IMG/VR virus record: IMGVR_UViG_3300044691_000264 | Coordinates: 1-27,457 of that record | DNA: 27,457 nucleotides | DNA from: a virus | Reading direction: 5' to 3' (one strand) | Shown: positions 23,920-27,457 of the stretch, piece by piece | Layout of the letters: every line of letters starts with the position of its first letter | Position numbering within the stretch: position 1 is the first letter of the stretch | Position numbers and translations under genes: made by a program | The notes under the pieces: model-generated | Databases searched by the model: none | What the model was told of the DNA's origin: nothing | Seen by the model: the letters and a program-made list of their open reading frames with translations, nothing else

Positions 23920-24351
23920 ATGAGCAGCATCACTTCCGCGAACAGCGTCTTCACGATCACCGTTGCCGGCTTATTCCCCACCCCCGTTAAGTTGCAGGGT
24001 TACGCGGCTGATCGCGCTTGGGAGACTAGCAACGTCACTTACACTGAGAGCGTTATGAGCGTCGACGGAATCAAGAGTTCCGGTTACGTCTTTAACCTAG
24101 TTGAGCAGACCATCACGCTACAGGCTGACTCTGCGAGCAAGACGATCTTCAATGCAATTGTGAATGCCATGAAGGCCGCCCGCGAGATCCTCATCATCTC
24201 GGGAAACATCGTTCTACCAGCGACCGGGGAATCTTTCGTGTGCCGGCGCGGAACTTTGAAGGACGCAAAGCCTCTCCCAAGCTCCGGTAAGCTCCTGGAG
24301 CCTCAGACGTACGTCATTGAATGGCAATCGATCGACGCGACGATTTCGTAA
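23920..24351 (+). CDS. Tail tube protein
   Basis: 143 aa. ATG with GAGAGGGA site, 16 bases after the sheath gene. SVFTITVAGLFPTPVKLQGY, then VTYTESVMSVDGIKSSGYVF, FNAIVNAMKAAREILIISG and the end TYVIEWQSIDATIS fit the short beta-barrel plus helix of phage tube subunits next to DUF3383 sheaths. The product stacks as rings inside the sheath. Confidence 0.75.
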   Translation: MSSITSANSVFTITVAGLFPTPVKLQGYAADRAWETSNVTYTESVMSVDGIKSSGYVFNLVEQTITLQADSASKTIFNAIVNAMKAAREILIISGNIVLPATGESFVCRRGTLKDAKPLPSSGKLLEPQTYVIEWQSIDATIS

Positions 24352-24596: not shown

Positions 24597-25019
24597 GTGA
24601 ACACCAGTCCCAAAGGTATCGCCTTCATCAAAGGGGAAGAGGGGTACACTCCTATTCCCAAGGATGACAACGGCCATTTGATGTGGGGTCACGGCCACGA
24701 TCGTGTAGGCTTCGAGCCCGTTCCTGATCACATCACGCCGCTCGACGCTGACTCTCTTCTGATTCATGATGTCTATACGCGCTTCGATCCGCACACGAGC
24801 GCCCTCGCTCCCTGGGCTAATCAGAACGAATTCGATTCGCTGAGCGACTTCGCGTATAACGAGGGCCTCGCGGCGCTCGCAACCATGTTGCATCACGGGC
24901 GCGAGCAAGTTCCAACTCAGATGGCGGCCTGGTGCTACGAACACGTTGACGGTAAGCTCCATAAGTCCGAAGGGCTCGCCGCTCGGCGCGCAAGGGAGAT
25001 CGCTCTGTATGTCTCGTAA
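24597..25019 (+). CDS. T4-type lysozyme (GH24) with altered catalytic triad
   Basis: 140 aa, GTG start with GGAGG site eight bases upstream. Cell-wall muramidase fold: FIKGEEGYTPIPKDDNGHLM then WGHGHD is the GH24 active-site region, and DSLSDFAYNEGLAALATM the helical core. Aligned by eye to E-D-T of T4-type enzymes, E15 and D23 are kept but the threonine position is M29. C-terminal HKSEGLAARRAREIALY matches the family end. No signal peptide and no adjacent holin. Position between tube and chaperone genes suggests a tail-associated lysozyme or an endolysin moved into the tail operon. The end overlaps the next gene by 11 bases. Confidence 0.8.
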   Translation: MNTSPKGIAFIKGEEGYTPIPKDDNGHLMWGHGHDRVGFEPVPDHITPLDADSLLIHDVYTRFDPHTSALAPWANQNEFDSLSDFAYNEGLAALATMLHHGREQVPTQMAAWCYEHVDGKLHKSEGLAARRAREIALYVS

Positions 25020-25479
25020 GACAGCAATGTACAAGGTTCAAGACGAGGGCCGGGATCACGGCAAGGTGTTCTTTATTACCGAGATGAGCGCAGCTCGCGC
25101 CGAGTCATGGGCGATGCGCGTGCTGCTCGCGCTGATGGCGAACAACTCTAGTATCCCCGAAGGTATGGAAGAATTAGGGATGGCTGGACTTGCAGAAGTT
25201 GGCCTCAAGGCTTTGGGCGGCCTCAGGTGGGAAGTAGCCGAGCCACTGCTCGCCGAGATGTTGGCTTGCCTGCAGATAATCCCCGATCCCTCCAAGACTC
25301 ATGTGCAGCGGGAGTTGATCGATGAGGACATCGAAGAGGTTTCCACTCGGCTTAAGCTCCGCATGGAAGTATTCAAGATCCATACTGATTTTTTTCAAAG
25401 CGCCGTCCCCTCAATATTCCCAGTAGGCAAAAAGGCGACGGCAGGCAGCGTGCGTCATACCGCAACATCACGAAAGTAA
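25009..25479 (+). CDS. Tail assembly chaperone, short form (lambda gpG-like)
   Basis: 156 aa, starting MSRKTAMYKVQDEGRDHGKV, ATG with AGGGAGA site overlapping the lysozyme end. The body (FFITEMSAARAESWAMRVLL, MEELGMAGLAEVGLKALGGL) is typical of gpG-like chaperones that coat the tape measure protein during tail assembly. It contains a slippery run near its end; most ribosomes would stay in frame and stop at 25477-25479. The longer in-frame extension to 24946 is inside the lysozyme gene and is rejected. Confidence 0.8.
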   Translation: MSRKTAMYKVQDEGRDHGKVFFITEMSAARAESWAMRVLLALMANNSSIPEGMEELGMAGLAEVGLKALGGLRWEVAEPLLAEMLACLQIIPDPSKTHVQRELIDEDIEEVSTRLKLRMEVFKIHTDFFQSAVPSIFPVGKKATAGSVRHTATSRK

Positions 25480-25598
25480 TAGGAACGTTGGTTTCTCGTA
25501 AGCTCGCGACGTTGCACGAGCTTGAAAATTACTACGGGATAGAAGACGCTTACGACATGCTTGAAATCATTATTGTGGATGACGCGAACAATGGCTAA
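25009..25598 (+). CDS. Tail assembly chaperone, frameshifted long form (gpGT-like)
   Basis: Joins 25009-25395 to 25395-25598 by a -1 shift, giving about 196 aa: 129 from the first frame and 67 from the second. The second-frame part (ASYRNITKVIGTLVSRKLAT, LHELENYYGIEDAYDMLEII, IVDDANNG) is a typical T-domain of this family and has no start or ribosome site of its own. The -1 frame has a TGA at 25386-25388, so the shift must occur at or after 25389. The T domain recruits tail tube protein to the tape measure. The stop overlaps the start of the following HNH gene. Confidence 0.75.
25389..25395 (+). promoter_or_regulatory. -1 ribosomal frameshift site (T TTT TTT)
   Basis: Seven T in the register T TTT TTT relative to the first frame, allowing both tRNAs to re-pair after slipping. 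A possible stimulatory stem GCCGTC (25402-25407) with GACGGC (25437-25442) begins six bases downstream, the usual spacing. A second, weaker candidate C AAA AAG is at 25428-25434. Confidence 0.7.
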
Positions 25599-25959
25599 AG
25601 ATTTGCGTTTTGCCAAGATGACCCCGGAGCAGAGGCGTGCGAAGTTAGAACGCGAGCGCAAATGGAGATTGAAAAATCCAGAAAAGAAAAACGTCATTCA
25701 GCGCCGCGCAAATCTTAAATACTCCTACGGCATCACGCTCGAAGAATACCACGCAATCTTTCAGTCTCAAGGCGAATCGTGCGCTATTTGTAGAGCAAAG
25801 CAATCAATAAAGTGGTGTCTCGACCATTGCCATTCTACAAACAGTGTCAGAGGAGTACTTTGCCATCACTGTAATACCCTACTTGGACACGCTAAGGATA
25901 ATGAACAAGTCCTCATAGATGCGATATTCTATCTACTTAAGCATCGCGAGCCCCAATGA
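25591..25959 (+). CDS. HNH endonuclease (recombination endonuclease VII-like)
   Basis: 122 aa from ATG at 25591 (MAKDLRFAKMTPEQRRAK); this ATG overlaps the end of the GT frame (AATGGCTAA). A basic helical N-terminus (ERERKWRLKNPEKKNV) is followed by YGITLEEYHAIFQSQGESCA, then CAIC, DHCHSTNSVRGVLCHHC and LGHAKD: the zinc Cys pairs and catalytic DHCH of endonuclease VII relatives. It is paralogous to the antisense gene at 16725-16976. Its insertion between chaperone and tape measure genes, which are normally adjacent, suggests a homing-type invader. Its end overlaps the tape measure start (ATGA). Confidence 0.85.
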   Translation: MAKDLRFAKMTPEQRRAKLERERKWRLKNPEKKNVIQRRANLKYSYGITLEEYHAIFQSQGESCAICRAKQSIKWCLDHCHSTNSVRGVLCHHCNTLLGHAKDNEQVLIDAIFYLLKHREPQ

Positions 25960-27457
25960 GCACCGTAATCGATGAGCTAATCGTAAGGCTCGGCCTAGAC
26001 TCCAAGTCCCTTGTGAGCCGTGGCGGCTCTGCGGATAAGACACTCAAGGGTCTGGAGAAATCCGGTAAGGCAACTACTGCAAGTGTAGAGGGCGTTAGCG
26101 CGGCATTCACAAAGATGCTCGCCGTAATCGGCGGCGCATACGCCATCAAGGCGTTCGTTGAGAATACGATCGCGAGCAGCGCGGCGCTCGACCGTTTGAG
26201 CAAGAATCTCGGTATCAGCGTTCGCGAGCTATCCGCATGGTCCAATGCCGTCGAAGAGGTTGGCGGTAGCGCTAAGGGTCTCCAGGGAACGATGAGTATG
26301 CTCAGCGCGGCGCAAACAGAGCTGAGGCTCACGGGGCAGTCTGGGCTCATTCCGTACTTCAACGCTCTGGGGGTTGCGTTCGCCGGCGTCGACGGTAAGG
26401 CGCGCCCCGTAAATGACATCCTCTTAGACCTTGCCGATCGCTTCAGTCACCTGGACCGCCCCACAGCTAACAATCTCGGGAAGATGATGGGGATAGATCA
26501 GGACACACTTAACCTCTTGCTGCAGGGACGGCGCGAAGTTGAGCTGATGATCAAGCGGCAGAAGGAGTTTAACGCGGTCAGCAAAGCCCAGGCTGAGGAG
26601 TCCGTTAAGCTGCAGAAGTCCCTAGTGAACCTGAGGCAGAGCTTCACCGCTCTGGGCCGCGATCTGTTGCAGTCAGCCTCCCCCGCGCTTGAGAAGTTTC
26701 TCGGCGTGCTCACCGGGCTCGCCAACTGGGCTCAGGCCAACAAAGAGTTCCTCAAGGATCTCGCCGTTATCCTCGGGACAGTGGCCGCCGGCCTCTCGCT
26801 GATCGCCGTAGCATCTTCACCGATCACGCTCACAATTGCCGCGGTCATTGCACTCGCTGTCGGCATCGCTCTGCTCTGGCAGGACTACCAGGTGTGGAAG
26901 CGCGGGGGACAATCCCTCATCGATTGGGAGAAATGGAAGCCTGGTATTGATGCGGCGATAGCGGGAGTTAAGGATCTAGGTAAAGCTCTGGAGGTAGTTG
27001 CTTCCGCGATAAGTATTGTCAAAAAGGGACTTAGCGGAGATACAAGCGGCGCTAACGCGGCATCACTCAAGCTACACGATAAGATTATGGGATGGCTAGG
27101 GGTTAAGCCTGACGCTTCCGCGAGCGAGGTATTACACGCGGCTCTCGGAGGATTGACTAGCGACGGCAAATACACCCCCGGCGCGCTGGCTACCGGAATT
27201 GCTCGGGCGGAAGGATTCAACGCGAAAGGTAAAACCCCGAATCGTCCACAGCGTAACCACAACCCCGGAGATATGGAGTACGGTGACTTCGCAAAGGCTC
27301 ACGGCGCAACCGGGAGTGATGGGCGCTTCGCAATCTTTCCTGACGATGAAACTGGTTTTAAGGCTATGGAAGCCCGATTAGTGAGCGGACAATACGCCGG
27401 CAAAACCGATGCTGAGAAACTGAAAATATGGGCTCCTGCATCTGAGAATGACACTGT
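25956..27457 (+). CDS. Tail tape measure protein, 5' part (continues past window)
   Basis: At least 500 aa, open at the window end. Starts MSTVIDELIVRLGLDSKSLV, the usual tape measure N-terminus (IDELIVRLGLD). Ser/Ala/Gln-rich helical stretches (SKNLGISVRELSAWSNAVEE, SAAQTELRLTGQSG, QKEFNAVSKAQAEESVKLQK) are typical. A hydrophobic segment at about 265-312 (LAVILGTVAAGLSLIAVASS, then PITLTIAAVIALAVGIALLW) would cross a membrane. Residues about 405-480 (GIARAEGFNAKG, NRPQRNHNPGDMEYGDF, GRFAIFPDDETGFKAMEARL) resemble a peptidoglycan-hydrolase/transglycosylase-like domain found in phage structural proteins. It sets tail length and may open the cell wall on DNA entry. Confidence 0.85.
   Translation, partial: MSTVIDELIVRLGLDSKSLVSRGGSADKTLKGLEKSGKATTASVEGVSAAFTKMLAVIGGAYAIKAFVENTIASSAALDRLSKNLGISVRELSAWSNAVEEVGGSAKGLQGTMSMLSAAQTELRLTGQSGLIPYFNALGVAFAGVDGKARPVNDILLDLADRFSHLDRPTANNLGKMMGIDQDTLNLLLQGRREVELMIKRQKEFNAVSKAQAEESVKLQKSLVNLRQSFTALGRDLLQSASPALEKFLGVLTGLANWAQANKEFLKDLAVILGTVAAGLSLIAVASSPITLTIAAVIALAVGIALLWQDYQVWKRGGQSLIDWEKWKPGIDAAIAGVKDLGKALEVVASAISIVKKGLSGDTSGANAASLKLHDKIMGWLGVKPDASASEVLHAALGGLTSDGKYTPGALATGIARAEGFNAKGKTPNRPQRNHNPGDMEYGDFAKAHGATGSDGRFAIFPDDETGFKAMEARLVSGQYAGKTDAEKLKIWAPASENDT

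Follow-up and report, generated by a model that had tools for sequence, protein, structure and literature searches.

A probable -1 programmed frameshift at a poly-T slippery site in the tail chaperone gene of a poorly annotated family of contractile-tailed phages

The window analyzed here (the whole 27,457-nucleotide stretch) holds part of a tail operon in which a tail assembly chaperone gene, referred to as G, overlaps a second coding region, T, in the -1 frame. The G/T pair sits between the tail tube-like and tape measure genes, as expected for a lambda-type G/GT chaperone, and a DUF3383 tail sheath gene also lies upstream of G. The features of the locus are as follows.

23920..24351, + strand: tail tube-like protein (E217_Gp32; Pfam PF22764, E=4.1e-21; PHROG 1964)
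25009..25479, + strand: G, tail assembly chaperone ORF of 156 aa in frame 0, from the ATG at 25009 to the TAA ending at 25479
25386..25388, + strand: TGA stop in the -1 frame, read from the sequence; it abuts the heptamer and is the upstream bound of the shift
25389..25395, + strand: putative slippery heptamer T_TTT_TTT, with P- and A-site Phe codons at 25390-25395 (conservation and frame change)
25389..25598, + strand: T region in the -1 frame, open to the TAA at 25596-25598 (PHROG matches and related loci)
25402..25407, + strand: 5' arm of the predicted hairpin, GCCGUC, beginning 6 nt after the heptamer (fold peak and arm-swap test)
25409-25411 with 25433-25435, + strand: predicted inner CCU/AGG helix of three pairs (fold)
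25428..25434, + strand: C_AAA_AAG, a second candidate site 39 nt past the heptamer, probably incidental (AAA AAR is rare among the loci)
25437..25442, + strand: 3' arm of the predicted hairpin, GACGGC (fold, family fold peak and arm-swap test)
25956..27457, + strand: tape measure protein, running off the window (PHROG 2276 'tail length tape measure protein', E=1.2e-67)

Two other genes are interspersed in this region. A phage lysozyme gene (24597-25019; Pfam E=5.5e-11) follows the tube-like gene and shares 11 bases with the start of the chaperone gene G, and an endonuclease VII-like HNH gene (25591-25959; Pfam E=6.9e-22) is placed after T and ahead of the tape measure gene, with its ATG overlapping the end of T.

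The frame-0 codons at the site are GAT TTT TTT CAA, which puts T_TTT_TTT in register for a -1 shift. Residues 1-129 of G form the part upstream of the slip, the 129th being at the slippery site, and the predicted G-T fusion therefore has 129 + 67 = 196 residues. The window's -1 frame contains no ATG, GTG or TTG ahead of the T domain. An earlier note, made from the letters alone, had described the in-register run, the TGA directly before it, a T domain lacking its own start, a 196-aa fusion and a 6-bp stem (GCCGTC/GACGGC) six bases past the run, and each of these was recovered. A run of seven Ts occurs once in the whole window and is by itself unremarkable, because about 0.7 would be expected from base composition; the chance of such a run falling in register within the 91-nt overlap is about 7e-4.

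Residues 1-129 of G match PHROG 1932 ('tail assembly chaperone') with E=1.8e-44 over 129 of 134 profile positions, and G also matches a BFVD tail assembly chaperone (E=1.4e-8). The T product matches PHROG 3976 (E=1.5e-13), PHROG 4774 (E=5.1e-8) and, weakly, PHROG 20369 (E=0.0028), another 'tail assembly chaperone' with a profile of sufficient length to span the G and T parts together. The AlphaFold models of G and T each have a pLDDT of 85.5, that of T comprising three C-terminal helices. No solved structure was matched by the G and T sequence profiles, and a Foldseek search against the PDB gave nothing significant. With VIA-align, the G model paired best with 5IR0, of unknown function (Z 6.7), with the HK97 chaperone 2OB9 (Z 6.0, rmsd 3.5, 83 residues) and with YqbN 3KLU (Z 5.2), all under the Z of 8 from which fold matches are usually safe; the next unrelated row stood at Z 2.7. 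The predicted fold of G may resemble that of the HK97 tail chaperone.

To place the site in a family context, about 200 loci were gathered by tblastn in phage records and by pattern scans of viral and genome contigs, and the G and T profiles were run on their three-frame translations. Both profiles were found in 166 distinct loci. In every one of these, T is in the -1 frame relative to G, and T TTT is present near the end of G in 163, which is the fair figure for its conservation, since the 125-locus set used below was anchored on T TTT and has TTT in 125/125 by construction. The alignment of relatives called for in the earlier note therefore singles out the T run, AAA AAR being found in 8/125, and the pattern that would have spoken against a frameshift, homologues with their own T start and neither heptamer conserved, is not the one seen in this family. 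After removal of near-identical sites, 157 loci divide into T TTT TTN (104), T TTT TCN (44) and other T TTT NNN (9); the three further loci carry TTC, two of them as G GGT TTC (L093) and A AAT TTC (L123). Many T TTT TCN loci have G GGT TTT one codon upstream, and the 125 non-redundant loci have at that position G GGT TTT in 49, A AAT TTT in two and C CCT TTT in one. Neither a canonical earlier heptamer nor T TTT TTN is present in 19/125, where the U_UUU tetramer is kept. Phe codons elsewhere in these genes are TTT 187 times and TTC 334 times.

The change of frame is visible in the conservation of the family. Mean BLOSUM62 scores per codon, anchored on the slip codon, were computed in frames 0 and -1 for the 125 non-redundant loci. 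Conservation in frame 0 is high through the slip codon and drops afterwards, and in frame -1 it is low ahead of the slip codon and climbs there, with F in 93% of loci at codon +1 and R in 94% and 70% at codons +4 and +5. Upstream, stops interrupt the -1 frame at codon -8 in 12 loci, at codon -5 in 11 and at codon -1 in 8, and none of the 125 loci has one in the eight codons past the site; frame 0 has 28 stops in the same eight codons, one at +6 and 27 at +7. In three loci (L019, L020 and L065), the shift is confined to the 22 nt of TGA/TTTTTTN...TAG, which leaves TTTTTTN as the sole candidate.

The evidence for the downstream hairpin is comparative, as the window's own fold (25396-25445, -14.1 kcal/mol) is only modestly better than chance, with a z that reaches -2.2 at best and varies with the stretch folded, and with 6/200 shuffles equally good. 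When 48-nt windows of the 125 loci were scanned against dinucleotide shuffles, the one directly past the heptamer had a mean z of -1.52 (SEM 0.13), with half of the loci below -1.5, and the other 38 windows between -300 and +156 had means from +0.40 to -0.54, averaging near -0.1. Because the loops are of unequal length, no consensus came out of RNAalifold when run on an ungapped MAFFT alignment of 36 sites, and an arm-swap test was used instead. The loci's own arms paired at -17.4 kcal/mol, compared with -14.3 kcal/mol for arms swapped between loci (z -12.7, 0/5000 permutations); the corresponding difference in control regions was only 0.3-0.8 kcal/mol, and shared base composition therefore accounts for a small part of the effect. 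The window's own arm pair is unexceptional in this test, with 23 and 44 swapped partners equal or better, because GCCGYC arms are common to many relatives. The heptamer, the 6-nt spacer and the conserved structure together correspond to a hairpin-stimulated -1 signal, for which spacers are 5-9 nt. An upstream Shine-Dalgarno-like stimulator, an optional element of the dnaX type, was not enriched (4% of loci versus 0-9% in controls).

Taken together, these comparative data support the reading of the earlier note, a -1 frameshift cassette with a slippery run and stem in the tail chaperone gene, and we put at roughly 95% the probability that programmed slippage at the T heptamer, with the downstream hairpin, yields two chaperone forms. 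Both forms would start at the single start codon. Most ribosomes would continue in frame 0 as far as the stop at 25479 and make the 156-aa protein, and a minority, on reaching UUU UUU at 25390-25395, would be held up by the GCCGUC/GACGGC hairpin that begins six nucleotides further on. There, the P- and A-site Phe-tRNAs may re-pair one base back, from U_UUU_UUU to UUU_UUU, and the shifted ribosomes would read the -1 frame to 25598, producing the 196-aa G-T fusion. By analogy with lambda, excess G and scarce G-T would bind the tape measure protein, and T would recruit the tail tube subunit. We infer from the sequences that slippage occurs, and likewise its rate and the roles of the two products.

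Lambda uses GGGAAAG as its slippery sequence, and the all-T heptamer does differ from it, as the earlier note had pointed out. Such a heptamer is not unusual, as U_UUU_UUU and U_UUU_UUC are among the high-efficiency -1 motifs, and U_UUY among the best -1 tetramers, in Escherichia coli, which may not be the host of this phage (PMC4066793). Early synthetic tests in E. coli, with the same reservation about the host, found U_UUU_UUU less shifty than A_AAA_AAG (PMC5009743). The slip motif might have drifted from U_UUU_UUN to G_GGU_UUU and A_AAU_UUY and finally to a bare U_UUU, with hairpin strength holding the G:GT ratio constant, but we regard this scheme as doubtful. On average, hairpins are indeed more stable where the motif is weaker, although this is a trend only, not significant after GC correction or in matched pairs (22/35, p=0.21).

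A homopolymer of seven Ts could also cause RNA polymerase to slip and add a base, so that the G-T fusion would arise from heterogeneous mRNA and not from ribosome slippage. UUUUUUU is underrepresented in all frames of E. coli genes, for which transcriptional slippage is one possible reason (PMC4066793). However, most relatives have just four to six Ts with the same -1 arrangement, L093 and L123 have only three, and the conserved hairpin directly past the site fits ribosomal -1 slippage, which makes a transcriptional origin very improbable. Even less probable is independent translation of T, through reinitiation or a weak start, with no fusion being made. An ATG, GTG or TTG does precede the T core in 24 of the 115 testable relatives, and the public record of NC_019527 has T as a gene of its own (gp68); nevertheless, 91 of the 115 loci, the window included, have no such codon between the slip site and the T core, an upstream start codon with a Shine-Dalgarno-like sequence was found in only 6/115, and -1-frame conservation starts at the slip codons, upstream of the annotated T starts. 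In a few relatives, T could be initiated independently. Finally, a shift at C AAA AAG, whose position 39 bases on was given correctly in the earlier note and which offers an in-register Lys AAA AAG pair within the overlap, is scarcely credible, because the site is unconserved (in-phase AAA AAR past the slip site in only 8/125 loci), has no room in the loci with the 22-nt window, lies beyond the end of frame 0 in many others and 39 nt past the point where -1-frame conservation begins, and does not fit an X XXY YYZ heptamer. Slippage of the ribosome at the T heptamer thus remains the preferred reading.

Domains related to T also occur elsewhere. In Myosmarvirus, Pbunavirus, Wifcevirus and similar phages (358 records), a T-like domain is encoded in frame as the C-terminal part of a PHROG 4774 protein of about 172 aa, located between the baseplate hub and spike genes; examples are L207:1228-1746 (MyoSmar gp059), L208:1228-1746, L211:1228-1749 and L215:8601-9134 (PB1 gp41). 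The T run is not present in the three of these genes whose sequences were read (L207, L208 and L211), and the protein may be a baseplate paralogue of the tail chaperone. The idea that Myosmarvirus gp059 represents G and GT split into two genes was dropped in view of Burkholderia phage Maja, a phage of the same kind, in which the annotated frameshifted tape-measure chaperone lies elsewhere. Chaperones of other PHROGs with a -1-frame T were found in Stenotrophomonas phage B2 (L209:1193-1737) and Vibrio phage PGA (L210:1106-1698), whose T products begin FF at the matching place, and the arrangement is therefore wider than PHROG 1932.

The public records examined miss the frameshift and either list T as a hypothetical protein in its own right or omit it, and our search of the open literature found no paper reporting this frameshift in the Bcep781, BcepNY3 or Obolenskvirus relatives. 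The short ORF after the chaperone is very probably the C-terminal part of a frameshift fusion and not a gene of its own, and many phages and prophages should be reannotated accordingly. The comparative sequence evidence supports a frameshift throughout a large family of contractile-tailed phages whose annotation is poor. With over 100 natural variants of slippery site plus hairpin, this family would also help to connect motif and structure with the rate of frameshifting.

It is well known that tailed phages use -1 frameshifting to make a longer form of the tail chaperone, and the locus described here is very probably a well-supported, previously unrecorded member of the lambda G/GT class. In lambda, a -1 shift near the end of G lets a single start yield a short and a long product (PMC5009743); the place in the tail operon, the position of the shift and the shared start are alike here. 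The locus departs from lambda in its U_UUU_UUU site and conserved hairpin, in the size of its T region (about 67 residues) and in belonging to a phage with a contractile tail. The HK97 chaperone 2OB9 and YqbN 3KLU share about 10% identity or less with G. A 2025 study put forward a poly-T slip site for the tail chaperones of Pakpunavirus, and one in Vandenendeviridae and Andersonviridae was argued on the same lines (PMC12846349). As described there, the TAC-N/TAC-NC systems of these phages are like ours in their contractile tails, in a -1 frame open across a 'hypothetical' downstream gene and in an invariant poly-T site, GTTTTT; they belong to other families than that of the window phage, and the text consulted mentions no hairpin. 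The direct homologues of G are those of the PHROG 1932 phages, namely Obolenskvirus AB2 and AB1, Popoffvirus 56, Gofduovirus and Pantoea PA-1, which, Obolenskvirus AB2 being outside the T comparison, have the same poly-T site and -1-frame T, annotated in their records as a separate 'hypothetical protein' or omitted.
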